Source of the DNA: a virus
IMG/VR virus record: IMGVR_UViG_3300031837_000043
Span: 1 to 29,226 of that record
Length of the DNA stretch: 29,226 nucleotides
Strand: one strand, 5' to 3'
Shown here: positions 1,180 through 28,487 of the stretch, one piece after another
Position numbering within the stretch: position 1 is the stretch's first letter
Layout: every line of letters begins with the position of its first letter
The notes under the pieces: generated by a model
Told to the model about the DNA's origin: nothing
The model's database searches: none
Seen by the model: only the letters and a program-made list of their open reading frames with translations
Made by a program: the position numbers and the translations under genes

Positions 1180-1186
1180 ATAAATA
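1180..1186 (-). promoter_or_regulatory. TATTTAT start-proximal motif, methyltransferase gene
   Basis: TATTTAT on the minus strand is separated by 15 A-rich nt from the ATG at 1164. It lies inside an inverted repeat, CATTCTAT (1162-1169) and ATAGAATG (1184-1191), whose inner arm includes the start codon. Confidence 0.5.
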
Positions 1187-1217
1187 GAATGATTTTTTTT
1201 AAAAAGTCTGTGAAGGG

Positions 1218-1246
1218 AAAAAAAAGCCCCAAATAAATGAGGCTTT
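1218..1246 (-). terminator. Rho-independent terminator after the secreted-protein gene
   Basis: On the minus strand a 6-bp stem (AAAGCC/GGCTTT on plus, 1223-1228 and 1241-1246) is followed by a run of eight T (A-run 1218-1225 on plus). It lies between the stop of the secreted-protein gene and the methyltransferase start. Confidence 0.7.
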
Positions 1247-1248
1247 GA

Positions 1249-1288
1249 AAAGTTTACTTTTTGTAAAGTTTACTTTTTGTAAAGTTTA
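1249..1288. repeat. 16-bp tandem repeat, 2.5 copies
   Basis: The unit AAAGTTTACTTTTTGT occurs at 1249-1264 and 1265-1280, followed by a partial copy at 1281-1288 that abuts the TAA stop of the upstream minus-strand gene. Each unit can fold as TTTAC/GTAAA around a T5 loop. Function unknown; slippage during replication is a simple origin. Confidence 0.7.
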
Positions 1289-1933
1289 TTATTCAATAAT
1301 AAACTTACCAGAATCAAATGAGCCATCGTTATAAAGTACTCTGTATATATACAAGGTATTTGAGTTAAGGTTGCTCTTATAGTCGCTCATAGAGGCTTGT
1401 TTGATGAAATTACCTATTGCATCATATACGTAATAAGTCCCGTTCTTTGGCTGGGTTGCAATTGGGTTTATTGTCGCCGTTGTTATGGCGCTTGTGAAGT
1501 AAAATGAGTTATATGCAGTTGTGTACTCGCAGTAGTCGTATAAGTTTGTGCAAAAACTGAAATAGTAAAGCCAACTGTTATTATTGGTAAATGTTACCAT
1601 TTCACCCGTGAAATATAACCAGTAAATTCCTGAACTTCCTATTTGGTTTTTTAAAAGGCTCGTTACCTCAACGCTATCCACTTTATAAGCTATGCCACCA
1701 TTTGAGGGATTTTCCAAAGTTACATAAACATAGAGGTTACTTGTGTCAGTCCCGCCTACTGTTCCGCCATATTGCACCTGTACGGCAAGCTCAGTGCCTA
1801 TTGGGGCGCTTGTTATGGGCGTCGTTAAGTTTGAAGCAAGGTAAACCCCGCTATTCTGGTAAAAAAATACCTGCGCTTTTGCACTGGAAAATAGTAGTAG
1901 AATGAATGCGAATAATAGAATAAGTTTTTTCAT
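1289..1933 (-). CDS. Secreted protein with signal peptide and a type IX secretion-like C-terminal domain
   Basis: I chose the start at 1933, giving 214 residues. This puts a compact signal peptide at the N terminus (MKK, a leucine-rich core, then a SSAKAQ cleavage region); an upstream in-frame ATG at 1969 would only add 12 residues. The mature protein is rich in Tyr, Ser, Thr and Asn with alternating beta-strand patterns. The last 55 or so residues read like the type A sorting domain of Bacteroidota type IX secretion substrates: YVYDAIGNFIK, then a linker, then TLYIYRVLYNDGSF and GKFIIE at the end. If so, the protein would be exported by the host Sec and type IX systems and placed on the cell surface, for example to alter surface receptors. 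That role is inferred. It has its own downstream terminator, so it can be expressed alone. Confidence 0.7.
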   Translation of the reverse strand: MKKLILLFAFILLLFSSAKAQVFFYQNSGVYLASNLTTPITSAPIGTELAVQVQYGGTVGGTDTSNLYVYVTLENPSNGGIAYKVDSVEVTSLLKNQIGSSGIYWLYFTGEMVTFTNNNSWLYYFSFCTNLYDYCEYTTAYNSFYFTSAITTATINPIATQPKNGTYYVYDAIGNFIKQASMSDYKSNLNSNTLYIYRVLYNDGSFDSGKFIIE

Positions 1934-2007
1934 AATGAGTTTTTTTAAGTGAATCAGCAATATACGCACTTATTCTCAATGGTGGTCAAAATAAACCACC
2001 ATTCTTG

Positions 2008-2388
2008 TTATTGTCCTGCGTTTTCCTGGAAAAGCAGTGTTTTAACATATTCACGAATAGGATAAGCTCTACGTATTAGAAGTTTATTATCCTCAATTTG
2101 ATCCTCAATGTTAGAGATAGTAATATTATTTGTTTCTTCCAACAAAAAAAAGTTAATTTTATGCCTGAATTTTTTTATGAATGCCAATGACCAAAAACCA
2201 AAACCGCACTGCATACTGATAACATCCCAATCAAACTCAGGAGCGAATTTTTGAATAAAAGAATGGCTTAATTTCTTGTCGAAAAACTTGTGCTTATTTT
2301 TTTCCCAATCAAATGTATCTGCGTTTTGCTCAATATATTTTTCTAACTCTTTTCCATTGAGGTCAATTAGTTTTTTTGTCATATCCAT
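2008..2388 (-). CDS. Small protein with W-IS/LS-FI repeat motifs, function unknown
   Basis: This 126-residue protein carries the pattern LSHSFIQKFAPEFDWDVIS at about residues 41-59, followed by a second, weaker copy ending FIKKFRHKI. The pattern matches the repeat of the 251-residue protein at 5055-5810, so the two are probably distant paralogues. No catalytic motif is visible. A TATTTAT motif overlaps the first ATG (2388), so the second in-frame ATG at 2382 (MTKKL) may be the true start. A terminator lies immediately upstream, so the gene must have its own initiation signal very close to the start codon, or depend on read-through. Confidence 0.65.
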   Translation of the reverse strand: MDMTKKLIDLNGKELEKYIEQNADTFDWEKNKHKFFDKKLSHSFIQKFAPEFDWDVISMQCGFGFWSLAFIKKFRHKINFFLLEETNNITISNIEDQIEDNKLLIRRAYPIREYVKTLLFQENAGQ

Positions 2389-2393
2389 AAATA
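2387..2393 (-). promoter_or_regulatory. TATTTAT motif decoupled from upstream transcription
   Basis: TATTTAT precedes the ATG at 2382 by 4 nt and sits only 7 nt beyond the T-run of the terminator at 2400-2433. This leaves almost no room for a conventional promoter and leader. Confidence 0.5.
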
Positions 2394-2399
2394 GAGGGC

Positions 2400-2683: not shown

Positions 2684-2697
2684 AACTGTTTTTTCTC

Positions 2698-2704: not shown

Positions 2705-2752
2705 GGTAAAAAAAGAAAAAATTTGAACATCATAACTATCCTTATTATTAAG

Positions 2753-4408
2753 TTAGGCGACCTCTGCCAGCTCCCTTTTTTCTTTTTCTAGAATACGTTG
2801 CAATAACTCATTCCTTCTTTCTTGTTGAGACTTTATTTGAGGCTCAATAGGCGAGCTTACAGGCATTATCTGTATTGGGGTTGAACATTCTATTGGGTTT
2901 GAAATTGCGGGTTCCATTGAGGCTATTTTTGCGTTGTTATTTTTTTGTTTTAGTTCAATCAAACATAAGTCTTTTTTTAGCTCAGTATTGAACTCTTTTA
3001 TCTCTTTTTTTCCGTTGCCGTCAACGCAAAAAAGAAGCCTGTAATAGTCGTATCTGTCTTTTTTAAATGAGGGTTGGACGCCATATTTTTTAAAGGCGCT
3101 TATAATCTCTTGTTGGGTTTCTGCAAAATATTCTTTAGGCACGCTTATTGAATCGTGGATGGTTAGCAACTCCATAGCAGGGTATTTTTTAAGCATATTT
3201 TTTGCCACAACCCTAACAATTAAATCTGATTCCAACTTTTGCAGATTTATCGCCAGCGCCTTATAATTATCTTTCTTTTGTTCCTGTATTATTCGATAAA
3301 GGGAAGGGAATTTATCTTTGAACAAATCAGCTAGTTTATTCTGCATGTGTTTATTCTGGCAAAAGAAAACCTTACCAAAAAAGTCCTGCTTATATTCCTT
3401 CCTTTTTTGCTCAGTCAGTCCATCAAAAATATACTCGTAAAACTTACCTTGCTCGCAAAGACTTACGTAAGTCTTTGCATCTTCTGGCAACTCCCTATGT
3501 CTTTCTTTGTAGTAGCTTTTAACGAAGCAGGCAAAAAACAAAGGTTGGCTGTTACGTATGTCAATAGCCTCAAGGCTCTTGCCATTGATTGTAATATAAG
3601 GACGTAGAATAGCTGGTAGGTTGCTATAATTGGTATGTACCCTAAAGCCCTTATTATCCACTTCAAAGAAAAACTGACCGTGATATATCTTACTTATCAC
3701 GCACAAATTGGATAAAAGAGCCTCAAAAGACATGTTTTCAGTACCCCTCCCAAAAGTTTTTGCTTGTTGAAACTCAGTCATATCAAGGGTTTTAGAAGGG
3801 GTCAGTAGACATAAGAGGGAGTATTTAGATTTGATAGATAAGATTAGATTGTTTATTATAGAATTAATATTAGAAGGTATTAGAGTATGATTTGATATAT
3901 AGAATTTATTTAATACCTCTTTAATAGCTTTATTTAAGTCTATTTGAATAGATTCTAAGTTTACTTTTAAAGAGTTATATAGCCTTATATCTGTTTTAAG
4001 CTCTGATTTATTAAATGCCTTTAGTTTATTTATAAACCAAGAATCATTTGCCATCGTTAAATAAAACATTTCACTTCTATACCTCTCTGTTAACCTATAC
4101 CCTAAACAAAAACTTTTCTCTTTATAAGTACCATTACATTCTATTATTCCCTGATAAATCAAAAAGTTAAGTATTGCCTTATAATAATCACGCCCCAATA
4201 GCTCTATAAGCTTATCTGAGTGAAGTTGTATGAAAGAATCATAACTATATGTTTTATTGATAAATCGTTTAACATACAGCGTATGAATGATGTAAGCGAC
4301 CTTATCAAGGTGGTAAGTCCCTAAATTATCTTGCCCGTGATTTATTAAGAGTTCTTGAAGATTTGCCAAAGATTCTGGCAAGTAAAAATAGATGTTCTCA
4401 GTATTCAT
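2753..4408 (-). CDS. Replication-type protein with winged-helix N terminus and family-A-polymerase-like palm motifs
   Basis: This 551-residue protein shows three blocks in the order expected of a family A polymerase or single-subunit RNA polymerase palm. They are IDIRNSQP (282-289, motif A-like with Asp283), a K-rich helix with KQDFFGKVFF (340-349, motif B-like), and LLTIHDSISVP (414-424, motif C-like with Asp419). The HDS triplet is the form found in T7-type RNA polymerases; DNA polymerase I has HDE. The N terminus (about 60-110) looks like a winged helix, as in plasmid and phage replication initiators. The C-terminal 80 residues are low-complexity, with charged repeats ending in a basic coiled coil. 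It probably acts in phage DNA replication or priming. The repeats upstream (GTGGTAC copies) suggest autoregulation or initiator binding. The polymerase assignment is from motifs only. Confidence 0.55.
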   Translation of the reverse strand: MNTENIYFYLPESLANLQELLINHGQDNLGTYHLDKVAYIIHTLYVKRFINKTYSYDSFIQLHSDKLIELLGRDYYKAILNFLIYQGIIECNGTYKEKSFCLGYRLTERYRSEMFYLTMANDSWFINKLKAFNKSELKTDIRLYNSLKVNLESIQIDLNKAIKEVLNKFYISNHTLIPSNINSIINNLILSIKSKYSLLCLLTPSKTLDMTEFQQAKTFGRGTENMSFEALLSNLCVISKIYHGQFFFEVDNKGFRVHTNYSNLPAILRPYITINGKSLEAIDIRNSQPLFFACFVKSYYKERHRELPEDAKTYVSLCEQGKFYEYIFDGLTEQKRKEYKQDFFGKVFFCQNKHMQNKLADLFKDKFPSLYRIIQEQKKDNYKALAINLQKLESDLIVRVVAKNMLKKYPAMELLTIHDSISVPKEYFAETQQEIISAFKKYGVQPSFKKDRYDYYRLLFCVDGNGKKEIKEFNTELKKDLCLIELKQKNNNAKIASMEPAISNPIECSTPIQIMPVSSPIEPQIKSQQERRNELLQRILEKEKRELAEVA

Positions 4409-4444
4409 TTGTGGTACTTATTTTTTTTTTTTGTGGTACTTATT
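4408..4444. repeat. Two 15-bp direct repeats at 22-bp spacing next to the replication gene start
   Basis: TTTGTGGTACTTATT occurs at 4408-4422 and 4430-4444, an exact 22-bp period (two helical turns) separated by a T-run. The first copy abuts the start codon. The core GTGGTAC appears a third time, inverted, at 4461-4467. Spacing and position fit operator or iteron sites. Confidence 0.75.
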
Positions 4445-4449
4445 AAAGC

Positions 4450-4482
4450 AACAAGCAGGCGTACCACGGCCTGCCTGCTGTT
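4450..4482 (-). promoter_or_regulatory. Hairpin in the leader of the replication gene with GTGGTAC in its loop
   Basis: AACA-GCAGGC pairs with GCCTGC-TGTT (10 bp with one bulged A) around a 12-nt loop that contains GTACCAC (GTGGTAC in the minus-strand transcript). It lacks a T-run, so it is more likely regulatory than a terminator. Confidence 0.5.
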
Positions 4483-4666
4483 AAAACATCAATTGTTTGA
4501 GTGAACTTTTAGACGCTTCTTTTCATAAATAGGGGCAAAAAATAAAATTCCTGCCCGATTAAGAAAAATTTAATCTTTTTCGCTCCTAAACTAAATAGTT
4601 TTTTGTAGTTGATGTAAGAAAAAGCGCAAAATAGATCAAAAAAGGCATAAAAAGCCTCTTAAAAAG

Positions 4667-4724
4667 CCATTCTATGATTTTTATTTATTTTTTGAGATGC
4701 AAGTTTATTTTGAAAATAGAATGG
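4667..4724. repeat. 9-bp inverted repeat CCATTCTAT / ATAGAATGG
   Basis: Perfect arms at 4667-4675 and 4716-4724 are separated by 40 bp. The same 8-bp core flanks the methyltransferase start, and ATAGAATG forms the start of the fibre and gp36 genes. Confidence 0.6.
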
Positions 4725-5054
4725 AGTGAAATTTATTTATTTTTTGAGGCTGGAAAATTCTTGGTTTTGTCCTATTAAAATATAACTATTCAAAGGGAAA
4801 ATATACATTCCTTTGAGTTGCCACTTTAAAAAGAAGAAAAATAAGTTAAAAAATTAGGAAATGACATGCAGATTGATATAAAAGTTGAAACAAGCCGAAA
4901 CTTTTAAAACATACGCACGTATATTATTAAAAACCGCTCAAGAAAAAGCATAGTTCTATTCCCCCTCTAAAAAAATGAGGTTATAGTCCGTATACGTAGG
5001 GGGTTTGGTAGGGTTACAAAATATTTAAGGCTATTTACCTAAAAAGAGTGAATT

Positions 5055-5810
5055 ATGAGATACAATGACGAAGTAATTAATGAACACGCTGACATTATTA
5101 AATGGTCGTCAGTAGCCCAAAGCCCAGATTTAAAATATGTAAGTATTGATTGTTTAAAAAAATACGAATGTGAATTTTCAAATGAAGATTGGGAATTTAT
5201 CTCTCAAAATCAATGCTTGTCTGAGGACTTCATAAGAGAGTTTAAAGATAAAGTTGATTGGACTTTGATTTGCGAAAATCAAACCTTGTCTGAGGATTTT
5301 ATTAATGAGTTTGAAGATAAAGTAGACTGGCGAGTAGTTTCAACTTACTCAAATTATTTTGTGGATTGCAACATAAAAATTCATTCAACTACTTTGTCTG
5401 AGGATTTTTTTAGGAAAAATTACGATAGACTTCCTTTAATTTTATTGGACTCCCTATTTACTATTTCATTTTTGAAGGAACATGCACACAAGTTTAATAA
5501 CTATCAATGGCAATGGGTTTCTGAAAAACAAATTTTATCTGAGGACTTCATAAGAGAGTTTAAAGATAAAGTTTATTGGACTTTGATTTGCGAAAATCAA
5601 ACTTTATCTGAGGACTTTATTAATGAGTTTGAAGATAAAGTAGATTGGAGTTTAATAAGTATTTATCAAAGACCATTTAATAAAAAGTTTTCAATTGAAT
5701 TTTTAAAGAAAAATATAAATAAAATAGATTGGGGTTGCTATTCTGTCTTCCATACTTTAACTACGGAAGAAAAAAAAGAATTTAAAAAAGAACTAAAAAA
5801 AATTAAATAA
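5055..5810 (+). CDS. Repeat protein (W-IS-Q-LSEDFI-EF-DKVDW units), function unknown
   Basis: This 251-residue protein is built from units of about 23 residues with the pattern W--IS--Q-LSEDFI-EF-DKVDW. LSEDF blocks start at about residues 55, 78, 114, 161 and 184, with degenerate units at both ends. Repeats of this kind occur in phages and large viruses without a settled function; the regular Trp, Leu and Phe positions suggest a helical solenoid that binds proteins. At DNA level 5220-5330 and 5538-5648 are 111-bp copies with only about five differences, showing a recent internal duplication or conversion. The neighbours downstream are small unknown genes on the same strand. Confidence 0.75.
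   Translation: MRYNDEVINEHADIIKWSSVAQSPDLKYVSIDCLKKYECEFSNEDWEFISQNQCLSEDFIREFKDKVDWTLICENQTLSEDFINEFEDKVDWRVVSTYSNYFVDCNIKIHSTTLSEDFFRKNYDRLPLILLDSLFTISFLKEHAHKFNNYQWQWVSEKQILSEDFIREFKDKVYWTLICENQTLSEDFINEFEDKVDWSLISIYQRPFNKKFSIEFLKKNINKIDWGCYSVFHTLTTEEKKEFKKELKKIK
5220..5330 (+). repeat. 111-bp intragenic repeat, copy 1
   Basis: Matches 5538-5648 over its full length with about five substitutions. It encodes two LSEDFI units. Confidence 0.9.
5538..5648 (+). repeat. 111-bp intragenic repeat, copy 2
   Basis: Second copy of the block at 5220-5330. One substitution changes the DKVDW of copy 1 to DKVYW; the others are synonymous or nearly so. Confidence 0.9.
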
Positions 5811-6227: not shown

Positions 6228-6234
6228 TATTTAT
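6228..6234 (+). promoter_or_regulatory. TATTTAT start-proximal motif
   Basis: TATTTAT is followed by 15 A-rich nt and the ATG at 6250. Confidence 0.5.
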
Positions 6235-6249: not shown

Positions 6250-6519
6250 ATGACCATAGAACAAGCTACCCTATTATTAACACAAGTAACATTGCATCCA
6301 ATAGTTGCAATTACATTAACGCCAGAGCAGACGGCGACTATTTATAATAATAAAGATATCCAAAGATTAATTTTGAGTATTGAAGGCTCAGTAATACAGG
6401 GCAACAAGCTTACTTTAAATGTAAGCAAAGTTATTCCTTTTTTTCAAGGTATAAGGCAAGATATAAAAGATGCTATTATTAAAAAAACATTAGAACTCGC
6501 AGGCATTCCCATTGAATAA
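6250..6519 (+). CDS. Hypothetical protein, 89 residues
   Basis: A small protein of mixed alpha/beta character with no recognised family. The N-terminal half is rich in Thr, Leu and Ile (TIEQATLLLTQVTLHP). The C-terminal half is an amphipathic helix (FFQGIRQDIKDAIIKKTLELAG). It has no membrane segment and no motif. The upstream leader repeat and TATTTAT motif support expression. Confidence 0.6.
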   Translation: MTIEQATLLLTQVTLHPIVAITLTPEQTATIYNNKDIQRLILSIEGSVIQGNKLTLNVSKVIPFFQGIRQDIKDAIIKKTLELAGIPIE

Positions 6520-8542: not shown

Positions 8543-10447
8543 TTATACCCTCGCTAATCTTATGGGTGTATTGTCGGCAACGAAATAATACATATAGGTT
8601 GTATCATAATAGAATTGTCCTTGATATGTGTTGGTTATTGCCGTACCTCCATATACGCCGAGCGTCCAATTACCCGTCGTTGATAAATAACCCTGTATTG
8701 TTCCGTTTGATATTTCCAGACTTGCAGTTTGATAAGATGCGGTTATATTACCGATATTATCAGAAGCCATAACTGTTCCAACTCCATTATTGCCTAAATA
8801 TGGAGCCTGTATTGTACTACCAGTACTACCTATTATAATAGGAGAAGTATTTGTTGTCGCCGTATTTATTGTAAGATAAGACGCGTTGCTGGAAATGTTT
8901 GTTACGTTTAAAGTTCCTCCGCTATTAATATATAATAGTTTATTACTATTCGTATCTAACGTTTGAAATAAATCACCACTTTGTCCAGTGTTTGCTTTTA
9001 TTATTTGTCCAACAGTTGAGGTTGAACCTGGTTGAATTGCTAATTGTGCAGTCGTACCGCTCGTGTTTATTCCAACAGTACCACCGCTTAATATTACCAT
9101 TGAATCATTTACTCCACCAGCCACAACAAAGTGAATATTATTATTTGTTGTGGTTCCAATAGTTAAATCTCCATTTGTAGAGGATAAATAAACAGCGTTT
9201 GATTTATTAAAATTTCCGTTACCAGAAAATGAACTTGAGTTTATTCCAAAATCACCATAAAAAGAACTTGCTGTACTCAAGTTGTTATTAACTACAATAT
9301 CAGAGCTTGCAGTTGCTCCACTATTTGCATTCTGAATTATCAGTTGATTATAACTATTTGTAGAACTTTCTAATGCTTCTAATATACCAGTATCTGAATA
9401 AGTCAAAGTTCCAGTTTGTAAAATTCCTGTATATAATGGATTTGAAACTGGTAAAAACAAATTACTTAGATTTGTTGAACCAGAAAATAAGGTGTTAGCT
9501 GAAATCGAAGTTCCTGAAACTGCACCCGTGAAAGTACCACCACTTAGGTTTGCTTTTGTGTTAAGTTGCGCATTAATTGAACTATTTGTTCCAGCGGAAT
9601 AACTATTAAACGAACTTTGTGATTCAAATAAATTAGATAAATCTGTACTTCCAGAATAAAATGTATTTGCCGAAACTGTAATTGCAGAGATTGCACCCGT
9701 GAAAGTTGCTCCTGATAAATTTGCTTTTGTATTTAATTGACTATTCGTTAGAGCAGAAAAAGAATTAAAATTATTTTGTGATTCAAATAAATTAGATAAA
9801 TCTGTACTTCCAGAATAAAATGTATTTGCCGAAACTGTAATTGCAGAGATTGCACCCGTATTTTTTATATATCTACCATCAGCAAATGATTTATGAATTA
9901 AGCTTAACGGCTCTAACGTAGTAGAGTAATCACTGCCATACATTATACCAACTGGGGTTGGCGTAAAATCCGTAAATGTTGTGTCTCCTTCAGATAGCGT
10001 AAACTGAGTAAGCTCTCCAATAAGAGTTAAGTCGCCAGCGTCGCCAGTAATTCCACCAGGTCCGCCATCAAATTGTATTCCAGTTCCACCATCAAATAGT
10101 ATTGTACCACTTACTTGATTTGCGCTTGTATTACCAGATAAAGGTATATAATTACCATTTGAGTTTGCAATAACAGTCCAATTTGAAGGGTTAAAAGTCC
10201 CTTGCGTTTGGGTTGTGCATTGGTAAAGTATTCCATTGTAAATTGTGGTTGTTCCAGGTGCGTAAACTATTCCAGTAGAATATTGTGTAAGTCCAACAAG
10301 ACTTAGATCAGTTTGCTTATTAAAGCTACTGTCTATTATATCTTGAAACTCCTGCCTAACGTCAAAAGCACTTATAAGCTCAGTGGTATTGTCTGGTATC
10401 CTACTATTATTATTTGCCGTTAAAGCGCTGGTTGGTAATAATGCCAT
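8543..10447 (-). CDS. Long tail fibre protein with internal repeats
   Basis: This 634-residue, Ser/Thr/Asn/Gly-rich protein has several copies of a GAISAITVSANTFYSGSTDL-type unit followed by NLF and LNTKANLSG segments, typical of trimeric beta-structured fibres. Residues 65-95 (YNGILYQCTTQTQGTF-PSNW) resemble a small chitin-binding-type module. The N terminus probably docks on the baseplate. Two exact 85-bp DNA repeats encode part of the shaft. A TATTTAT motif lies 14 nt before the ATG. The next gene encodes a lectin-like tip. Confidence 0.8.
   Translation of the reverse strand: MALLPTSALTANNNSRIPDNTTELISAFDVRQEFQDIIDSSFNKQTDLSLVGLTQYSTGIVYAPGTTTIYNGILYQCTTQTQGTFNPSNWTVIANSNGNYIPLSGNTSANQVSGTILFDGGTGIQFDGGPGGITGDAGDLTLIGELTQFTLSEGDTTFTDFTPTPVGIMYGSDYSTTLEPLSLIHKSFADGRYIKNTGAISAITVSANTFYSGSTDLSNLFESQNNFNSFSALTNSQLNTKANLSGATFTGAISAITVSANTFYSGSTDLSNLFESQSSFNSYSAGTNSSINAQLNTKANLSGGTFTGAVSGTSISANTLFSGSTNLSNLFLPVSNPLYTGILQTGTLTYSDTGILEALESSTNSYNQLIIQNANSGATASSDIVVNNNLSTASSFYGDFGINSSSFSGNGNFNKSNAVYLSSTNGDLTIGTTTNNNIHFVVAGGVNDSMVILSGGTVGINTSGTTAQLAIQPGSTSTVGQIIKANTGQSGDLFQTLDTNSNKLLYINSGGTLNVTNISSNASYLTINTATTNTSPIIIGSTGSTIQAPYLGNNGVGTVMASDNIGNITASYQTASLEISNGTIQGYLSTTGNWTLGVYGGTAITNTYQGQFYYDTTYMYYFVADNTPIRLARV
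9615..9699. repeat. 85-bp exact repeat in fibre gene, copy 1
   Basis: Identical over 85 bp to 9775-9859. It encodes the shaft unit containing FYSGSTDLSNLFESQ. Confidence 0.95.
9775..9859. repeat. 85-bp exact repeat in fibre gene, copy 2
   Basis: Second exact copy of 9615-9699, 160 bp away. It could change shaft length by recombination. Confidence 0.95.
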
Positions 10448-10461: not shown

Positions 10462-10468
10462 ATAAATA
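10462..10468 (-). promoter_or_regulatory. TATTTAT start-proximal motif, fibre gene
   Basis: TATTTAT is followed by 14 nt (AATAAACAAATAGA) and the ATG at 10447. Confidence 0.5.
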
Positions 10469-10479: not shown

Positions 10480-11832
10480 TTAAAAACTGTATTTTGTATT
10501 TATCGGGTTTTTTCCGTAAGTTGATTGAAAGTCTTTTTTACCGCCACGCATATAGTAATGAAAGTCAGTTTTTAAAAATTCACAAACGAAGTAATCTATT
10601 GTATCAGAAAAATGGCCGTACTTTTGGTATTTGATCTTTGTCTTATCGTCCGTTGTCATTTCCTTGTACTTTGTGCCGTCAGCGTCCTGTTTCAAATAGC
10701 TCAAATCCTGTATTGTCTTTTTACAGGTAGTATTTATTTTAATGGTAATATCTTGCATCTCACCATCCAACAGTGCGTTTATAAAATTACAACGCATAGC
10801 CACAGAGGGATTTTTTAGCGCAACTCTCATTATCGGGCGAAACTGAGCAAGCTCTTGCTGGACGATAGAGTAGTTGTTAAATCCCTTTTCCCTTGTAGTA
10901 TCGTCTTTTTTTCCTGTGCTATCACCATACACGTACAACCCTGCTTTGTGATTATCGTATTTATACCGAAGCTCCCTACAGACGTCAGCAGTATGATTTT
11001 TTGGATATGGAAGTTGTATTTCATCAATCAAAAAAAGCTTTTTACCTATCGCTTGCCAAACAGTAATTGAACAGCCTGGATTTACGTTAAAGTCCAAACT
11101 TACATGTAACGGTAATTCGGGTTGATATTCCAATTCACAAACATGTCTACTATGACGGAAAGATTTATAAAAGCAACCCTCTGAACTCTCGCGACCCCAC
11201 TCGCCAAGCCCATATATTCTATAGTAGTTTTCATCGTTTTTCATTCGCTTTTCGATAACCGTCTTGTATTCCAAGTCAATTAAAGCATTGTCTTTATAAG
11301 TGCTTTTTACGATGGTGCAATTGTCAACTTTACTGTCAAAGAACTCAGGTTTCAACCAATGATCTTCATTAATTGGGTTAAAGCAGATTATTATTTGCTT
11401 ATAATTTTTTGTTTCGCCTCTTAATCTTAAATCTAATTGTAATAAATCTGTCCTTTCAAGTTCTGTCGCTTCCTCAATCCATATACTAGTAATTCCATCA
11501 ACTGATTTTAATTTTTCAACGTCGTCGCAACCAAAAAAAACAAATTCATTAGCTGTTTTATTGTGCTTTATTTTAAAATCGTTATTTAATATAGTGAACT
11601 CTGAGGTTAAATTATAGTCAGAAATTAATTTTAACAGTAAATTCCAAACAGAACTTTTAATTGTAGCTTGCACCTTGCGTATTACCATTATTCTATGACC
11701 TTGCTCAGTCGTAAGTCTTAATAATAGTTTTTGACACGCAAAATAAGATTTGCCAGAGCCAGCACCACCAAATAATACCAAATACCTGTCTTGATTTGCT
11801 AGCAATGGAAGATATATCTTATTTATTTCCAT
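10480..11832 (-). CDS. terL: Terminase large subunit
   Basis: This 450-residue packaging ATPase/nuclease has Walker A GGAGSGKS (22-29), a Walker B strand SIWIEEATE (116-124) with the catalytic Glu pair, and a coupling motif near IICFNP (148-153). It also has an RNase H-like nuclease with Asp247 (SLDFN), the DE pair at 270-271, and Asp304 (YGDST). Length and order fit the terminase_3/PBSX-type family. The start overlaps the end of the small-subunit gene by 14 nt, so the two are probably coupled. It would dock at the portal and drive DNA into the prohead. Confidence 0.95.
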   Translation of the reverse strand: MEINKIYLPLLANQDRYLVLFGGAGSGKSYFACQKLLLRLTTEQGHRIMVIRKVQATIKSSVWNLLLKLISDYNLTSEFTILNNDFKIKHNKTANEFVFFGCDDVEKLKSVDGITSIWIEEATELERTDLLQLDLRLRGETKNYKQIIICFNPINEDHWLKPEFFDSKVDNCTIVKSTYKDNALIDLEYKTVIEKRMKNDENYYRIYGLGEWGRESSEGCFYKSFRHSRHVCELEYQPELPLHVSLDFNVNPGCSITVWQAIGKKLFLIDEIQLPYPKNHTADVCRELRYKYDNHKAGLYVYGDSTGKKDDTTREKGFNNYSIVQQELAQFRPIMRVALKNPSVAMRCNFINALLDGEMQDITIKINTTCKKTIQDLSYLKQDADGTKYKEMTTDDKTKIKYQKYGHFSDTIDYFVCEFLKTDFHYYMRGGKKDFQSTYGKNPINTKYSF

Positions 11833-12175
11833 CTTCTTTTGTTATAGTTTCAATCAACAATTCTTTTTCACGCAATTCTATTACATGCTTTGGTTCGGCT
11901 TGCTTTATTACCCAAGTCCTTAGTTCTTCTTTCGTGCTGGTAATATCAATTGTCTTTTCAGTCTGTTTTGGGGTTAGGTATGGTAGGGCTTTAACAATAA
12001 CGTTAAGCCTATCCAATGGCTCAAGGTTATATAAGTCCAATTCAAACTTATCGCTCTTTAAATAGTAATCAACAACCTTAGCCAGCTTTTCTTTAATATC
12101 ACTGCCAACCTTGTTTTTGGCACCCTTTGGCCTGCCTCCCTTTGGGGCTTTACCTTTCTCAAATTGATGGGACAT
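11819..12175 (-). CDS. terS: Terminase small subunit (probable)
   Basis: This 118-residue protein has the N-terminal basic signature KGGRPKGAKNKV that is common in phage small terminase subunits of this type, followed by helical segments. It lies directly upstream of terL with a 14-nt overlap. It would recognise phage DNA for packaging. It has a TATTTAT motif 11 nt before the start, in the divergent control region shared with gp36. Confidence 0.75.
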   Translation of the reverse strand: MSHQFEKGKAPKGGRPKGAKNKVGSDIKEKLAKVVDYYLKSDKFELDLYNLEPLDRLNVIVKALPYLTPKQTEKTIDITSTKEELRTWVIKQAEPKHVIELREKELLIETITKEDGNK

Positions 12176-12220
12176 ACTTTTTGATTATAAATAAGCTGAG
12201 TTATTTATAAAGAAAATAGA
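12176..12220. promoter_or_regulatory. Divergent control region with two TATTTAT motifs, packaging and portal operons
   Basis: In 45 bp there are two motifs in opposite orientation: TATTTAT on minus (12187-12193, 11 nt before the terminase ATG) and on plus (12202-12208, 12 nt before the gp36 ATG). Each is followed by an A-rich spacer. There is little room for any other promoter. Confidence 0.6.
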
Positions 12221-12794: not shown

Positions 12795-12801
12795 TATTTA
12801 T
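12795..12801 (+). promoter_or_regulatory. TATTTAT start-proximal motif, portal gene
   Basis: TATTTAT is followed by 15 nt and the ATG at 12817, in the short gap after the gp36-like gene. Confidence 0.5.
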
Positions 12802-17192: not shown

Positions 17193-17816
17193 TTATTTTA
17201 ATTGTAAAGACAAAGGCGCATCGCTCCAAGCCGAAAAATCATAAGCTATTGCATTAAGCATACCTTCCACCATTTTAAAAGATTCACTTGTAATTACTAT
17301 TTGATGAATGTTGAAGATGTTGTTAAGGAAATTAGAAACAACCACCAAAGATTGGTTTTGTGTTAGCATATATTCTAAAGCCTTTGTGTCAGTCAATGGC
17401 ACAACATCAGGAGTTTGTGATAACAACAATCCCCTAAAATTTATCGTCCAGTCGCCCAAGTTTATATATTCCTTAATTGATGAATCTCTACCCTGTACAA
17501 AAGTTCTAATAACATTATGCTCACGTTGTACATCAACCAGTACCGTTTGCAATATCACTGGATGCAAAAAAGAGGTATCACTATTTAGATAAAGTCGAAC
17601 GTCTACGAATACTGGCGTACCAATATAACTAGTAGAAAGAGGGGTGTCTGTTTCGGTTTGTTCTTGTTGGTTCTGAAATTTCTTAACTATAAGAGGCAAA
17701 CCCAAACTTGTAAGCGTAAGTTTTGCTTGGTCAAATACAACCGTTCCAGTACCTTTTGGAAATGGGTTAAAACTTTTATTATTAGCTGGCTGTTCTGGTG
17801 GTAATGTAAAAGGCAT
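17193..17816 (-). CDS. Baseplate-region protein, DUF6046-like, probable
   Basis: This 207-residue protein lies between the tape measure and hub, where contractile phages carry a LysM/gp53-type or tail-initiation protein. The central part (TPVFVDVRLYLNSDTSF, then ILQTVLVDVQREHNVIRTFVQGRDSSIKEYINLGDWTINFRGLLL) and the C-terminal helix pattern fit the family I know as DUF6046 in Bacteroidota phages. A proline-rich N terminus (PFTLPPEQPANN) precedes it. TATTTAT lies at 17845-17851, about 28 nt upstream. The name is tentative. Confidence 0.55.
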   Translation of the reverse strand: MPFTLPPEQPANNKSFNPFPKGTGTVVFDQAKLTLTSLGLPLIVKKFQNQQEQTETDTPLSTSYIGTPVFVDVRLYLNSDTSFLHPVILQTVLVDVQREHNVIRTFVQGRDSSIKEYINLGDWTINFRGLLLSQTPDVVPLTDTKALEYMLTQNQSLVVVSNFLNNIFNIHQIVITSESFKMVEGMLNAIAYDFSAWSDAPLSLQLK

Positions 17817-17859
17817 TTATATAAACGCTTACAAGGCATTTCATATAAATAATACTTAG

Positions 17860-19491
17860 TTACGCAGGTCGTAATCTCTGAGAATCGTTAATTGCAGTAC
17901 CCAAAGCCTCAACAACCAGTTTATAAATTTGCTGTTTGCTCTCTGTCATATTATTTGTTGTTATCTCAAATTTATCAATTAACTTTTCAATCGTTATACT
18001 CACATTGCCACCGTGAGCGCGCTCATTGCTTATACTGCCAATATCACTCCCAAGCTTTCCACCAGTACCAGAACCGCCACCTTTACCACCGCCCGCATCT
18101 GTCGCCATTTGTTCAATGGTTTCATCTTTTGCTCCCGCTCCTTTTTTTGCTCCAAAGAAATCTTTTATTTTTCCGTCATAAGCAAATCCCTCCTTAAAGC
18201 CGTCTACTACTTCCTTGCCAATGGTAAACGCATTATTATTTGCTATGGCTTTAACTACATTGGCAGTACCTTTTGCAACCTGCTCAAATGAGCCATTATA
18301 TGCACCTGCAATTATATCGCCAACTCCACCAAATATTTCTTTTACCATATTGGCAATGCCAACAAATACGTTTCTTGCAACCGTCCACAGAGACAGTAAC
18401 CACCTTATAACTATTTTATTTCTATCCGCAAAATCAATCATTGCAAAAATAATTTTCATAACGGCCTCATAAACCGTAAATATTATATCTCCAAGAGCCT
18501 TAAATACTGGTGCAAGCCAACTCATAACCGCACCAATGGCGTTAAATATTTTTTCAGTACCTTTGCCATCACTATTAAATGACTGCCAACGCTTTTGTAA
18601 GTCATTTAAAATATTTATTATCGGTTGGAATGCTTCTTTTAGAGGCGCAAATATTCTTTTTAAATTGCTCCAATTGTCCTGTAGCCATTGTATAGCATCA
18701 CTGCCAGCGTCTACTATCTTACCAAAGGGTTCAATTAAACTTTCACCTATCTTTATACCATTGTTCTTCAGATTATCTACAAGCGTACTCCAGCGCCCTT
18801 GTAAAGTCTGACTTTGCTTATCCATCATATTAAAGAACATACCACCTTTGGAGGTCATACCAACAAAAGCTTTTTGAATATCGCCAGCGCCAACTTTACC
18901 GTTAGTAATCATTTTACTCAGTTCAGCGCCCGTTACTCCATACTGCTTTTCCAACTGTTTCATTATAGGTATTTGGCCACCCTCAACTAGTACATTTAAA
19001 CTTTCAAGGTCAGCTTTACCCTTTGATAGTATCTTGCCATAGGCGCTAGTAATACTGTCAAGTTTCTCAGCGCTACCAGCAGATAAGTCACCAAGAGTTT
19101 TTAGTGTAGGCAATATCTGATTTGCTGAAACCCCAAAGTTTAACAGTAAAGTTGCGGATTTTTTTAAATCCTGAAATTCAAAAGGAGTTTTGGAAGCGAA
19201 AGTCTGTAACTGTTGGATTAAAACATTGGCTTTTCCAATGTCGCCTAAGAATGTCGAAAAGGTTACGCGCGTGGTCTCCATATCTGCGCCTAGTTGCAAT
19301 ATTTCTTTACCAACGGCGAATGCACCCAAAGCAAGCCCAACCCCTCCCAAAGTCCCTATAAGTCCTTTAAGTGGATTGTTTAGTTTAGTTACTTTTGATT
19401 CAAAACCTGATAGGTTACTTTGAGCTTGTTTAAGTCCAGGGCTGAACTTATCTTGCAAGCTAATAATATAATTTACTTTTTCTGAAGCCAC
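17860..19491 (-). CDS. Tail tape measure protein (GTG start)
   Basis: This 543-residue protein begins SEKVNYIISLQDKFSPGLKQAQSNL, has the hydrophobic block LIGTLGGVGLALGAFAVGKEIL (about 43-64), then the tape-measure domain with TRVTFSTFLGD, TPFEFQDLKKSATLLLNFG and VEGGQIPIMKQLEKQYG, long helical stretches and a Gly-rich segment near 480. It sets tail length and is threaded through the tube. The start codon is GTG; a TATTTAT motif 9 nt upstream and the conserved N terminus support it. The short length predicts a fairly short tail. Confidence 0.93.
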   Translation of the reverse strand: MASEKVNYIISLQDKFSPGLKQAQSNLSGFESKVTKLNNPLKGLIGTLGGVGLALGAFAVGKEILQLGADMETTRVTFSTFLGDIGKANVLIQQLQTFASKTPFEFQDLKKSATLLLNFGVSANQILPTLKTLGDLSAGSAEKLDSITSAYGKILSKGKADLESLNVLVEGGQIPIMKQLEKQYGVTGAELSKMITNGKVGAGDIQKAFVGMTSKGGMFFNMMDKQSQTLQGRWSTLVDNLKNNGIKIGESLIEPFGKIVDAGSDAIQWLQDNWSNLKRIFAPLKEAFQPIINILNDLQKRWQSFNSDGKGTEKIFNAIGAVMSWLAPVFKALGDIIFTVYEAVMKIIFAMIDFADRNKIVIRWLLSLWTVARNVFVGIANMVKEIFGGVGDIIAGAYNGSFEQVAKGTANVVKAIANNNAFTIGKEVVDGFKEGFAYDGKIKDFFGAKKGAGAKDETIEQMATDAGGGKGGGSGTGGKLGSDIGSISNERAHGGNVSITIEKLIDKFEITTNNMTESKQQIYKLVVEALGTAINDSQRLRPA

Positions 19492-19500: not shown

Positions 19501-19507
19501 ATAAATA
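19501..19507 (-). promoter_or_regulatory. TATTTAT motif before the GTG start of the tape measure gene
   Basis: TATTTAT is followed by AATAAAAAA and the GTG at 19491. A terminator lies about 28 nt further upstream. Confidence 0.5.
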
Positions 19508-19534: not shown

Positions 19535-19564
19535 AAAAAAAAACTGAGTGGAGGAAACTCAGTT
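19535..19564 (-). terminator. Rho-independent terminator between tail chaperone and tape measure genes
   Basis: A perfect 8-bp stem (AACTGAGT at 19542-19549, ACTCAGTT at 19557-19564) with a 7-nt loop is followed on the minus strand by nine T and then GCCC. Confidence 0.85.
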
Positions 19565-19626: not shown

Positions 19627-19794
19627 TTATTCTTTTTTGTTTTCCATTGTTCGCACCCATACTAATTGCTCCCACTTGTCGGCAAATTCGTCGTCGCTTA
19701 ATTGCTCTGGGAATGGTATGTGAAACATATAAGATAGTAAAGCATTCTGCTTTCTTATTTCATCATTATCGCTTATTCTGTTTCTATCGAATTT
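19627..19794 (-). CDS. Tail assembly chaperone C-terminal extension, read by -1 frameshift
   Basis: In the -1 frame after the nine-A run at 19792-19800 there is an open frame of 55 codons ending in TAA at 19627. It has no start codon of its own near its beginning. The translation includes NALLSYMFHIPFPEQLSDDEF and DKWEQLVWVRTMENKKE, a helical Trp-rich pattern typical of the second tail-chaperone product (lambda GT-like). Read with the upstream gene it gives a 146-residue fusion. It lies between tail tube and tape measure, the classic place for this frameshift. Confidence 0.8.
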   Translation of the reverse strand, partial: KFDRNRISDNDEIRKQNALLSYMFHIPFPEQLSDDEFADKWEQLVWVRTMENKKE

Positions 19795-20066
19795 TTTTTT
19801 AGCTCGCCTTTCGCAAGCTCAACTAATTGTATAGCCTGCATACATGCGCCATTGCGTAAAAATTCATTTGTCTTAATCTCTGAATCACCGTCCAACCACT
19901 GTTTTTGTAGCAGAATATCACCAGCTAGTATATAAGATGGATTACCATTTAATGGCATCATAAAGCCCAATACTGAGTTTAGTGTAAATCTATCCACTTC
20001 TTTTTTTAGAATGCAAGAATACTGTTGTCCAGTTTGGCCCGAAATAGTTATTGTATAAGTTTCCAT
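19773..20066 (-). CDS. Tail assembly chaperone, short form (lambda G-like)
   Basis: This 97-residue protein begins METYTITISGQTGQQYSCILKK and has RFTLNSVLGFMMPLNGNPSYILAGDILLQKQWLDG, a pattern of chaperones that coat the tape measure during tail assembly. Near its end the codons CTA AAA AAA AAT contain nine A, a -1 slippery site. Most ribosomes should stop at the TAA at 19773-19775; a fraction should shift and make the 146-residue long form. A TATTTAT motif lies 14 nt before the ATG. Confidence 0.85.
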   Translation of the reverse strand: METYTITISGQTGQQYSCILKKEVDRFTLNSVLGFMMPLNGNPSYILAGDILLQKQWLDGDSEIKTNEFLRNGACMQAIQLVELAKGELKKNSIETE

Positions 20067-20080: not shown

Positions 20081-20087
20081 ATAAATA
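20081..20087 (-). promoter_or_regulatory. TATTTAT start-proximal motif, tail chaperone gene
   Basis: TATTTAT is followed by 14 nt and the ATG at 20066. Confidence 0.5.
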
Positions 20088-20147: not shown

Positions 20148-20561
20148 TTATTCCTGAATGTCAGCTACCACCAATTCCAAATCAACGCCTATCATTGTAT
20201 CACCTTGTGCAATGTCAAACCCTGTAGTTTTGAAACGACACTGTTTTAGGATAACTTGCGCAGGTGATAAATTAGCAGAAAGAAAAGAATATACCACTGT
20301 AAAGTTAGGTATATCCATTAAATTTCGGGTAGGTATAAGAGCTAAAAGTTGTTGTAATGTGTCAAACAATATCGTAATTTTACCCGTGAACTCATAATTG
20401 CCATAACCGTAACTAATAGGTTTTGAGCCAGCCCCATAGATGGGTTCTATTTTTCTCGTCTTAGTATAAGATATTTTTTGAACGCCTACTATCTGGTTAC
20501 CAAGCACATTTATTGTGCCATCGCCCCAAGCGTAATTTTCTAAACCATTTATTAAAGCCAT
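20148..20561 (-). CDS. Tail tube protein
   Basis: This 137-residue beta-rich protein begins ALINGLENYAWGDGTINVLGN and contains VQKISYTKTRKIEPIYGAGSKPISYGYGNYEFTGKITI, a pattern of the inner tube protein of contractile tails (gp19/XkdM-like). The end DTMIGVDLELVVADI is the usual closing strand. It lies directly downstream of the sheath gene with a terminator between, and has its own TATTTAT motif 13 nt before the ATG. Confidence 0.85.
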   Translation of the reverse strand: MALINGLENYAWGDGTINVLGNQIVGVQKISYTKTRKIEPIYGAGSKPISYGYGNYEFTGKITILFDTLQQLLALIPTRNLMDIPNFTVVYSFLSANLSPAQVILKQCRFKTTGFDIAQGDTMIGVDLELVVADIQE

Positions 20562-20574: not shown

Positions 20575-20581
20575 ATAAATA
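20575..20581 (-). promoter_or_regulatory. TATTTAT start-proximal motif, tail tube gene
   Basis: TATTTAT is followed by 13 nt and the ATG at 20561. Confidence 0.5.
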
Positions 20582-20609: not shown

Positions 20610-20634
20610 AAAAAAAGAGGCTGTTTACGCCTCT
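20610..20634 (-). terminator. Rho-independent terminator after the sheath gene
   Basis: A 6-bp stem AGAGGC (20616-20621) / GCCTCT (20629-20634) with a 7-nt loop is followed on the minus strand by seven T. Confidence 0.75.
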
Positions 20635-21881: not shown

Positions 21882-21899
21882 TTTTTATATTTTTTTAAA

Positions 21900-21935
21900 A
21901 AAAAAGGAGAGAAGTAATTACCGCTCCCCTTTTTT
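21900..21935. terminator. Terminator hairpin between capsid and sheath genes
   Basis: AAAAAAGGAGAG (from 21900) can pair with CTCCCCTTTTTT over 12 bp with one A-C mismatch, with T-runs on both strands. It lies 25 nt downstream of the capsid stop and 19 nt before the sheath ATG on the minus strand. Confidence 0.7.
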
Positions 21936-21960
21936 AGAGTTTTATTTAAAAATTATTTAA

Positions 21961-22924: not shown

Positions 22925-23497
22925 TTAGAACTTCACTTCCTGAATTGAATTTTTGATGTTACTATTAACTTCATTTTTGAAAATGTCTAATAGTGCGTTG
23001 TACATTTCTGGCTGTTCTTTTTCCAGTTTTTTAAGTCCTGAAGGATCGTTTTTTCTCCAGTCTTTAAAAGACCAACTAGCTCTTACTAGGTCAAGGTTGT
23101 TTGTCATATAATTTTTAGTTGTATTATTAGAATTTATGTTATCAGTTATTTTTACCGCTTGTTTGTTTACCACGGTGGGCGTTATTGCGCCAAAGCTTGT
23201 TTTAAAAGCCTCTATGTTACTTTTTGCAAGAATTATCATTGATTCTTTTGCATCAGATTTGAATTTTCCAGACTGAATTGCATTTTCAACAACCTCTAGC
23301 GCCTCTCTATCAAGAGATTTTTCTTTTTCTATTTTGTAAGCTTTAAGCTCATCTTGTAGTAAAGCCAGCTTGTCTTTCAAGTCTGTATTTTCGGTTTCAA
23401 TAGAAGTATCTTTGGTTTGAATCTTTTCAATAGCTTCTACTATCGCGTCTTCACTCGCTTCATTTTGAAGCTTTAATTTGTTTGTTATTTTGTCCAT
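22925..23497 (-). CDS. Candidate nested scaffold protein, in frame within the protease gene
   Basis: An in-frame ATG at 23497 (Met216, MDKITNKLKL) begins 190 residues that make up exactly the scaffold-like, coiled-coil part. Its upstream sequence TTCAAAAAAAACGA is A-rich like other starts here, and a TATTTAT lies at 23531-23537, 33 nt before the ATG, inside protease coding sequence. This is the only intragenic case I noticed where the motif and an in-frame Met at a domain boundary coincide. It remains an inference. Confidence 0.55.
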   Translation of the reverse strand: MDKITNKLKLQNEASEDAIVEAIEKIQTKDTSIETENTDLKDKLALLQDELKAYKIEKEKSLDREALEVVENAIQSGKFKSDAKESMIILAKSNIEAFKTSFGAITPTVVNKQAVKITDNINSNNTTKNYMTNNLDLVRASWSFKDWRKNDPSGLKKLEKEQPEMYNALLDIFKNEVNSNIKNSIQEVKF

Positions 23498-24142
23498 TCG
23501 TTTTTTTTGAATTATGGATTTGCAGGCGTTATAAATAGTAACTGCACAATTTTCCTGCGTATAAATAGATTTGTTTTTTAAAACTGAATTTTCTACTAGT
23601 TTTTTGGTGAAATTATCTATAGGTAGTATTTCATCAACAAGCCCGTACTGTTCTTTGGCTTCTTGTGCCGTAAAAATTGTTTCCTTTTTCATTAATGATT
23701 CAACTTGATCTAGTGGCAATTTTGACCTCGTAGAAATCATAGAGGCAAGAGACGCTCTAGTTGATTCAAGTAAGTTTTTTATTTTATCCGTTGCCGTAGC
23801 TTCTGTGTATGGTTCGTGGATTAAAATAGAACTGTAAGGCTGTGCATATACTTTACTACCAGCCAAAAGAATAATAGAAGCTATACTGCCAGCCATACCA
23901 TCGTTATAGGTAGTAACAAACATCGAACTTTCCTTTATGGCGCTGTAAATGCTATAACCATCCATCACATTACCACCATTACTATTAATTCTTACGTCAA
24001 GGGTTTTATAGCCTTTGTTTTCAAGATCAAGAATAGCTTGTGCGACCCTTGCCCCAGATATACCAGTACCATCCTCATTAACTCCAATGTCGCCATACAG
24101 TAGAATTGTTGGCGTTTGTCCTTTATTAATTATTTCGTTCAT
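22925..24142 (-). CDS. ClpP-fold head maturation protease fused to a scaffold-like region
   Basis: Residues 1-185 form a ClpP/crotonase-fold prohead protease: RINSNGGNVMDGYSIYSAI (51-69), GMAGSIASIILLAG with probable nucleophile Ser86 (82-95), SILIHEPY with His109 (105-112), and a YGLVDEIL segment with Asp170. From about 216 to the end the protein is charged and coiled-coil-rich (IEKIQTKDTSIETENTDLKDKLALLQDELKAY), typical of a scaffold. The arrangement matches the lambda C/Nu3 type, where a scaffold is nested in the protease gene. A TATTTAT motif lies 6 nt before the ATG, next to GGAG, a rare Shine-Dalgarno-like word here. Confidence 0.9.
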   Translation of the reverse strand: MNEIINKGQTPTILLYGDIGVNEDGTGISGARVAQAILDLENKGYKTLDVRINSNGGNVMDGYSIYSAIKESSMFVTTYNDGMAGSIASIILLAGSKVYAQPYSSILIHEPYTEATATDKIKNLLESTRASLASMISTRSKLPLDQVESLMKKETIFTAQEAKEQYGLVDEILPIDNFTKKLVENSVLKNKSIYTQENCAVTIYNACKSIIQKKRMDKITNKLKLQNEASEDAIVEAIEKIQTKDTSIETENTDLKDKLALLQDELKAYKIEKEKSLDREALEVVENAIQSGKFKSDAKESMIILAKSNIEAFKTSFGAITPTVVNKQAVKITDNINSNNTTKNYMTNNLDLVRASWSFKDWRKNDPSGLKKLEKEQPEMYNALLDIFKNEVNSNIKNSIQEVKF

Positions 24143-24177
24143 CTCCTTATAAATAAGTTTTATTTATAATTCAAAAA
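24143..24177. promoter_or_regulatory. Divergent control region with two TATTTAT motifs, capsid and neck operons
   Basis: A 35-bp gap holds TATTTAT on minus (24149-24155, 6 nt before the protease ATG) and on plus (24161-24167, 10 nt before the ATG at 24178). Confidence 0.6.
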
Positions 24178-24594
24178 ATGAGCGCTACTATTAAGAGGGT
24201 TGGTAAGGGGTTTCAGTTCGATAAAAAAATAGCTGAATGGAATAAGCAAAAGCCAAAACTATTAGAAGAAATAAAAGATGAATCTTTGAAGTTCTTCAAA
24301 GACAACTATAATAAAGAGGGCTTTGAAGATAGCGTATTTGAAAAGTGGAAGCCGAAGAAAAGGCCAAACGGACAGCCTACGCTTGTAGCCACTGGATTAT
24401 TAAGGAAGTCTTTTAAGGCTATTATTGGAAGAAATAAGGTTACTATTTCAAACCCCGTGGCGTATGGTTTGTACCATAACCAAGGCACAAGCAGACTACC
24501 TAAACGTAAATTTTTAGGAAACAGCAGAGTTTTGGAAGTCGCAAACGCAAAAAGAATTATCAAACATTTACACCCGATTCTATTTAAAAAATGA
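24178..24594 (+). CDS. Virion morphogenesis / tail completion protein (Mu gpG-like)
   Basis: This 138-residue basic protein has the pattern of the Mu gpG / HK97 gp10 group: KWKPKKRPNGQPTLVATGLLRKSF, then VTISNPVAYGLYHNQGTSRLPKRKFLGNSR. The TGLLRKS and YGLYHNQGT-PKRKFLG blocks are the usual signature. It acts at the head-tail joint or in tail completion. Its stop overlaps the start of the next gene by 4 nt. Confidence 0.8.
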   Translation: MSATIKRVGKGFQFDKKIAEWNKQKPKLLEEIKDESLKFFKDNYNKEGFEDSVFEKWKPKKRPNGQPTLVATGLLRKSFKAIIGRNKVTISNPVAYGLYHNQGTSRLPKRKFLGNSRVLEVANAKRIIKHLHPILFKK

Positions 24595-27406: not shown

Positions 27407-27427
27407 TCTTTATATAGTGAGGATTTA

Positions 27428-28078
27428 TTAATCTTCTTCTGGTAAATCATTCATAGCTTTTCTTATATCAAAGTTTTTTTTGATATAAGCGTTGGCGTTT
27501 TTTAAGTTTGTGTTGAACTCTTTCATTGACATATTTAAATCTTTTCGCATAACGTCTTTTTTGGTTGTAACTTTTCTCTTTTTATCAAAAGGAGAGATTT
27601 TTTGTTTTAAAAACTTTTCCGTATAAAACAAAATCCAAACTTGATATTCCTTGTTAGAAAGTTCCCTTTTTGCGAACGCATCCAACGCAATAAAAGCAAG
27701 ATCGTATTTATCACTGGAGGTTACCTCAGCTTGTTTGAACCCCTCATTATCATTAGTTAAATCAACCTTTTCAAATACATACTTATCGCCGTGCTTGTTT
27801 TTCTTTTTAATAACAAGGTTGTTATTAATCAAATTCTTGGTCAAACTCGAATAAAAGTAGTTCAGAAAGTCCTTCTCAGTATTGGCCTTTATTCCTTTTT
27901 TTAATAAAGAACGCCTTACCATCCAGTAGGTAAATTGAAAAGTATCTTCAGCGCTCTCTATCGTATCGTGGTAATTTGGTTGCTTGGTATAGATGTGGTA
28001 TTTGAAATGATGCAATATTTTATCGTAATTCTTAATAATAATAGAATCGAAAATATCTAATTGTTCTTTATTTGTCAT
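27428..28078 (-). CDS. Sigma-70-family-like RNA polymerase factor, divergent
   Basis: This 216-residue, Lys-rich protein resembles ECF-type sigma factors. At about 38-85 lies a region 2-like block (DTIESAEDTFQFTYWMV, then DFLNYFYSSLTKNLINNN), the counterpart of the D--QETF--AW and arN-i-- motifs. At about 136-200 lies a region 4-like block (AKRELSNKEYQVWILFY, then a helix-turn-helix-like KDVMRKDLNMSMKEFNTNLKNANAYIKK). It could direct host RNA polymerase to phage promoters, with the TATTTAT motif as candidate target. The similarity is weak and from pattern only; another DNA-binding role is possible. It is a lone minus-strand gene between plus-strand late genes. Confidence 0.55.
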   Translation of the reverse strand: MTNKEQLDIFDSIIIKNYDKILHHFKYHIYTKQPNYHDTIESAEDTFQFTYWMVRRSLLKKGIKANTEKDFLNYFYSSLTKNLINNNLVIKKKNKHGDKYVFEKVDLTNDNEGFKQAEVTSSDKYDLAFIALDAFAKRELSNKEYQVWILFYTEKFLKQKISPFDKKRKVTTKKDVMRKDLNMSMKEFNTNLKNANAYIKKNFDIRKAMNDLPEED

Positions 28079-28084
28079 ATTTAT
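28078..28084 (+). promoter_or_regulatory. TATTTAT motif in the divergent gap beside the sigma-like gene
   Basis: TATTTAT on plus, followed by 21 nt and the ATG at 28106. On minus the same site overlaps the start codon of the sigma-like gene (TATAAATATG). Confidence 0.4.
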
Positions 28085-28105
28085 AGTAGTTACTATTAGA
28101 TAATT

Positions 28106-28477
28106 ATGAAAGAAAAAATAAAAAGCGCTGAAACCTGCGCAAATATTGATAAAATAAAGAACTATTTACTATCAAATATGAAATTTTTGGCTGGAAACTA
28201 TAGTAATAATGAGTTTTACCACTTGGTAAATGGCATAACTGAGACAATATTAAATGAATCTTTCATTATAGGTAAACAGATAGAGTGGGATTACTATTCC
28301 AGTTCTATTTATGGGTATTTACACTGTTGCGATGTAACATTTTTGTCCATCGCTATTGATTTAATAGATGTTTTGGAGCGTGAAGCTCTAACGCAGTTGA
28401 TAATAGTTGAGGAATTTTTGACTTGCGCTAATATTAAAGAGGCATGTAGAATATTCAGAGAGATTTTTGAAAAATGA
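28106..28477 (+). CDS. Hypothetical protein, 123 residues
   Basis: A mostly helical, Cys-containing acidic protein (SAETCANIDKIKNYLLSNMKFL, then DVTFLSIAIDLIDVLEREALTQLIIVEEFLTCANIKEACRIF). No family is recognised and no membrane segment is clear. It lies between the sigma-like gene and the lysis genes. Confidence 0.6.
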   Translation: MKEKIKSAETCANIDKIKNYLLSNMKFLAGNYSNNEFYHLVNGITETILNESFIIGKQIEWDYYSSSIYGYLHCCDVTFLSIAIDLIDVLEREALTQLIIVEEFLTCANIKEACRIFREIFEK

Positions 28478-28480
28478 ATC

Positions 28481-28487
28481 TATTTAT
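28481..28487 (+). promoter_or_regulatory. TATTTAT start-proximal motif, small lysis-region gene
   Basis: TATTTAT is followed by 10 nt and the ATG at 28498. Confidence 0.5.

Follow-up and report, generated by a model that had tools for sequence, protein, structure and literature searches.

A TATTTAT box ahead of transcription-unit starts in a Winoviridae-like phage contig, a candidate late promoter shared with other phages, probably of Bacteroidota

The window, by which we mean the whole stretch of DNA analyzed here, is an IMG/VR virus record of 29,226 bases for which 39 gene starts were curated. Its terminase (~37% identity), head protease (26–28%), and tail sheath (38–41%) are related to those of Flavobacterium phages of Winoviridae; in the phage collection, every sheath relative whose host is named infects Bacteroidota. 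Replication genes of the kind carried by the Winoviridae relatives were not recognized in the contig, which is therefore probably incomplete. The heptamer TATTTAT precedes genes on both strands. In the left part of the window, it is found on the minus strand at 1180–1186, 15 nt before the methyltransferase gene (61–1164) and with a terminator upstream; at 2387–2393, where only 4 nt separate it from the ATG at 2382 (TATTTATGGAT followed directly by ATG), a terminator-like hairpin recognized by eye lies directly ahead of it, and the transcript is predicted to be leaderless; at 2698–2704, 14 nt before gene 2432–2683; and at 10462–10468, 14 nt before gene 8543–10447, which is fibre-like by size and position and gave no family match. 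A plus-strand copy at 6228–6234 lies 15 nt before gene 6250–6519.

The virion genes served by the motif lie on either strand, and those for the adaptor, portal, protease, and tape measure were identified by family match, the others by position. The first divergent gap holds a minus-strand copy (12187–12193) 11 nt before gene 11819–12175, named terminase small-subunit-like from its position before terL, and a plus-strand copy (12202–12208) 12 nt before the head-tail adaptor (gp36-like) gene 12221–12784; the portal gene (12817–14133) follows, 15 nt behind a plus-strand copy at 12795–12801. Four minus-strand copies belong to the region downstream: 17845–17851, 28 nt before gene 17193–17816; 19501–19507, 9 nt before the GTG start of the tape measure gene (17860–19491), where a terminator at 19564–19542 is immediately upstream so that terminator, box, and GTG all fall inside ~75 nt; 20081–20087, 14 nt before the tail chaperone-like gene 19773–20066; and 20575–20581, 13 nt before the tail tube-like gene 20148–20561, with a terminator at 20634–20616 immediately upstream, the latter two genes being named by position. 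In the second divergent gap, a minus-strand copy at 24149–24155 lies 6 nt before the head protease gene (22925–24142), and a plus-strand copy at 24161–24167 lies 10 nt before the gpG-like gene 24178–24594 (named by position). The preliminary description of this DNA had stated that each gene bordering these two gaps has its own copy facing it, which is indeed the case. Near the right end, a plus-strand copy at 28078–28084 lies 21 nt before gene 28106–28477 and extends into the start codon of the divergently oriented neighbor 27428–28078, and another at 28481–28487 lies 10 nt before ATG 28498, the start of a 50-residue lysis-region gene; the earlier assignment of the motif to this last gene holds provided that ATG 28498 is the start. 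This start was one of two that were corrected, the other being the second ATG, at 2382, of the gene previously given as 2008.

The proposal that the motif is enriched near starts was confirmed by shuffled controls. The window holds 47 copies on both strands, compared with 20.1 ± 4.4 expected from dinucleotide shuffles, none of which reached 47 in 100 trials, and among all 7-mers TATTTAT is the most enriched upstream of the starts. It lies in sense orientation and entirely within 22 nt upstream of 14 of the 39 genes, where 0.5 are expected (Poisson p ~5e-16), and within 40 nt of 16 of them; when each upstream sequence was shuffled separately 2000 times (33 nt), the mean was 0.7 and the maximum 5 against the observed 14. 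The distances from the end of the motif to the start codon are 4, 6, 9, 10, 10, 11, 12, 13, 14, 14, 14, 15, 15, and 15 nt, plus 21 and 28 nt, which puts the minimum spacing in the window at 4 nt and revises the earlier count of about 16 genes to 14 within 15 nt and two with farther copies. The flanks are also looser than the YTATTTATAA first proposed: position −1 accepts any base except G (G in 0 of the 15 copies near starts), and at the fifth position downstream of the motif, A is present in 87% of these copies versus 41% of the others. Both rules, no G at −1 and enriched A at index 11, are common to the window and two jumbo-phage genomes described below, although the latter partly reflects the A-rich stretch that precedes starts.

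The Winoviridae-like relatives of the window phage hardly share this usage. Among 76 sheath-bearing viral contigs, TATTTAT occurs very rarely ahead of starts, even where the GC content is 30–33%, and comparable use was seen only in L007, a fragment 100% identical to the window; another identical fragment, L002, was found with the terminase. The Flavobacterium phages lotta8-1, pippi8-1, and FPSV-S1, of Winoviridae and relatives, resemble the window in terminase, protease, and sheath (26–41% identity) but differ in having mostly co-oriented genes and no TATTTAT before starts, whereas in the window the coding strand changes from block to block and many units come with a proposed promoter of their own. 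Relatives that were inspected closely likewise have mostly co-oriented genes, with some TAnnTTTG promoters. When set against lotta8-1, three parts of the window (terS-terL, the portal block, and the block from protease to tail) appear mutually inverted, as judged from gene order and family matches rather than full alignment, and both divergent gaps that hold a pair of boxes sit at such inversion junctions. In L025, a Winoviridae-like relative of 40% GC, CCTATTTATTA precedes the protease and capsid genes only (4219–5480), too few cases for a claim. An enrichment of GATTTAT or AATTTAT in L011, L012, and L080 was discarded, as most of these words lie inside the coding ends of upstream genes.

The motif recurs in T4-like and jumbo phages that are unrelated to the window phage and probably infect Bacteroidota. 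A scan for divergent pairs led to the jumbo phages, and because such a scan selects for the word itself and biases the loci fetched, complete genomes were examined afterwards. In the jumbo phage G002 (340 kb, 26% GC), TATTTATA occurs before starts 31 times compared with 2.75 expected; its consensus is TATTTATWAWTAAA, and a second class, TATATCTTTGTA, exists alongside it. A-rich words are enriched too, as expected ahead of starts, and upstream of the box there is only a mild T-rich bias. Among its 231 unit-leading genes, 38 carry the TATTTAT class and 69 the TAnnTTTG class, while only one carries both (11.4 expected, p = 1e-5). In a second genome, G003, TATTTAT stands at 43 of 143 leading versus 7 of 102 internal genes, and exclusion of the early class was not significant there. 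Both genomes encode sigma factors, including one that is gp55-like; the G002 protein matches the late sigma (gp55) family with E = 9e-4, and both it and its G003 counterpart match gp118 of Flavobacterium phage immuto, which dominates their named relatives, along with a Microcystis phage in the case of G003. Immuto, whose host is Flavobacterium sp. LMO8, is T4-like and possesses gp20 and gp23. TATTTAT precedes its genes for terL, the gp20 portal, sheath, tube, hub, and tape measure, and its early region uses a different box, TATATTTAGGTA. Of 91 leading genes, 21 have the motif and 25 the early class, and none has both, where 5.8 would be expected from these counts. Immuto thus provides a link between the motif and late genes in a phage that has been isolated, and its gp118 (L244:18174–18872), annotated as hypothetical, is a probable gp55-like late sigma candidate. 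In addition, many early genes of immuto share TATATTTAGGTATCAATAATTAAAAC.

We consider it likely, with a probability of about 0.7, that TATTTAT is the core of a phage-directed, T4-like late promoter that consists of a −10 box only. What the sequences provide for this reading is the enrichment, the sense orientation, the restriction to unit starts, terminator-motif-gene cassettes at some sites, the near absence in relatives, and the recurrence elsewhere. T4 late promoters consist of a single 8-bp TATA box, TATAAATA, with no −35 element and AT-rich sequence downstream, occur on either strand, and are read by gp55 together with gp33 and the clamp gp45 (PMC2988020). The element in the window would resemble them in having one 8-bp AT box, located roughly a helical turn ahead of the start, without a −35 element, with AT-rich DNA directly downstream and late genes on either strand, and also through the gp55-like proteins of other phages that carry the motif. 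It differs in sequence, since the sense box here is TATTTATA, with AA changed to TT at positions 4–5 of TATAAATA, so that the sense word TATTTAT(A) equals the T4 box at 6 of 8 bases but is not the T4 box itself. It also differs in that the boxes are so near the start codons that leaders of 0–11 nt are predicted, and in that the window phage is small and Winoviridae-like, not T4-like; gp55, gp33, and gp45 were not identified in the contig.

The phage-directed promoter would work as a single −10/−7-type box, read in sense orientation without a −35 element, that fires genes singly or in short operons on either strand. By inspection, no upstream hexamer is conserved in the window that could represent a −35 element. 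Transcription would probably start at an A ~5 nt after the box, leaving leaders of 0–11 nt for most genes; with A as the start point, a box at 4 nt would make the transcript begin at the ATG itself, as predicted for the gene at 2382, which would explain why no copy lies closer in the window. The reader would most likely be host RNA polymerase with a phage-encoded sigma factor, possibly the protein of gene 27428–28078. The late timing of these genes would follow from gene identity and analogy, because the early region is apparently missing from the contig. A point against the promoter reading is that the exact heptamer is missing at 11 of the 27 unit-leading genes, including those for capsid and sheath, although the sheath gene may be read through from the capsid gene.

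A less likely explanation, which nevertheless deserves attention, is that the box is a variant −7 box of the host, read by its primary or an alternative sigma factor without any phage factor. Bacteroidota primary promoters carry TAnnTTTG at −7, and TATTTATA fits this box in part; both are AT boxes shortly upstream of the start, the start position deduced here suits the TAnnTTTG register, the motif is common to phages of different lineages, and the sigma factor of the window itself is a candidate only. However, the cores differ at positions 6 and 8, with A instead of T at position 6, the motif is not used by relatives whose structural genes are homologous, and in two phages, G002 and immuto, genes with the motif and genes with the TAnnTTT-type early box form mutually exclusive classes. 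Within the window, TAnnTTTG was found within 70 nt of the start at none of the 36 called genes.

It is improbable that the motif acts in the mRNA as a translation-start element, either an unstructured AU-rich enhancer or a binding site that replaces Shine-Dalgarno, even though most start-proximal copies lie 4–15 nt ahead of the start codon and a Shine-Dalgarno-like sequence was seen at hardly any gene of the window. The motif is present at 16 of 27 unit-leading genes and absent from all 12 genes packed behind a same-strand neighbor (p = 4e-4), which equally need translation; this result uses a gap limit of 20 nt, picked after one start had been corrected, while a limit of 25 nt gives 15 of 26 leading versus 1 of 13 internal genes (p = 0.005), and a partial confounder is that internal genes leave little noncoding space ahead of them. 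In addition, a terminator is present in the 60 nt upstream of the motif at 3 of the 15 start-proximal copies versus 0 of the 32 others, the spacing varies from 4 to 28 nt, and relatives with homologous genes nearly lack the motif. The preliminary description had left the choice between a promoter giving short leaders and a translation element, and the former is supported over the latter because the motif follows transcription-unit starts, excludes the early class in two other phages, and in several cases lies directly behind a terminator. The least probable reading is a literal T4 late promoter on the other strand, prompted by the earlier remark that the reverse complement contains TATAAATA: in the divergent gaps this word does lie upstream of the opposite gene, but in all nondivergent cases it is antisense and would drive transcription away from the gene, and we rejected it as the active word because antisense copies (ATAAATA) precede only 4 of the 39 starts.

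The protein encoded on the minus strand at 27428–28078 (P0001, 216 amino acids) is a candidate divergent phage sigma factor, and on the strength of fold hints we put its chances of being one slightly below even. By eye it is ECF-sigma-like, with AEDTFQFTYW... and a helical C-terminal half. Its single-sequence AlphaFold model is of low confidence overall, with a pLDDT of 49 that reaches up to 81 in the N-terminal part; the leading PDB fold matches are mostly sigma factors (SigR region 2, TM 0.68) and the viral fold matches include several sigmas, none of them significant in either set, and a helical control protein from the window had no sigma among 39 fold matches. The sequence gave no Pfam, NCBIfam, or ECF-profile match and no significant match to a gp55-like profile, and against a profile of 24 Bacteroidota sigma proteins 1629 of 1996 shuffles of P0001 scored at least as well. 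A search for relatives in viral contigs, phage records, PDB, and 396 Bacteroidota genomes returned only the identical fragment L007. Eighteen marginal genome matches (E 0.015–0.1) were set aside; two are ECF sigmas by inspection, and the other readable ones are unrelated. An inverted repeat, ATAGTAGTTACTAT, lies at 28078–28105, where the candidate sigma gene and gene 28106 diverge, and is a possible operator.

As a more tentative picture, which we regard as possible but rather doubtful in its entirety, the co-oriented late operon of a small Winoviridae-like phage might have been split into numerous short units, several of which possess a terminator of their own and all of which are under a T4-like late promoter read by the phage's own very divergent sigma (27428–28078), a system that would have converged on, or been captured from, the late system of T4-like Bacteroidota phages. 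Keyword searches of open-access papers did not turn up any account of late promoters in Bacteroidota phages, although such an absence is no proof. The motif offers a testable late-gene signal for a large and poorly understood group of phages, one that is the same in quite different lineages and can be mapped in the isolated phage immuto.

Several minor features of the window were also observed. Rfam and tRNA scans of it were empty, and a Sigma70-type promoter scan did not rise above shuffles. The 646-nt noncoding divergent gap 4409–5054 contains repeated GTGGTACTTATT and three TATTTAT copies away from starts, and may be a control or replication region. A 251-aa protein encoded at 5055–5810 contains repeated LSEDFI(R/N)EF(K/E)DKVDW units and matches phrog_3532, a phage family of unknown function, and a T9SS-like tail at 1289–1969 is a weak match (E 0.006). 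In the tail chaperone-like region, 19627–20066, an overlapping open frame follows the gene and an A run lies near 19800, a layout that resembles tail chaperone frameshifts. The capsid-sheath gap (21882–21960) holds a terminator-like hairpin with a T run, and lotta8-1 and FPSV-S1 are similar at the same place.
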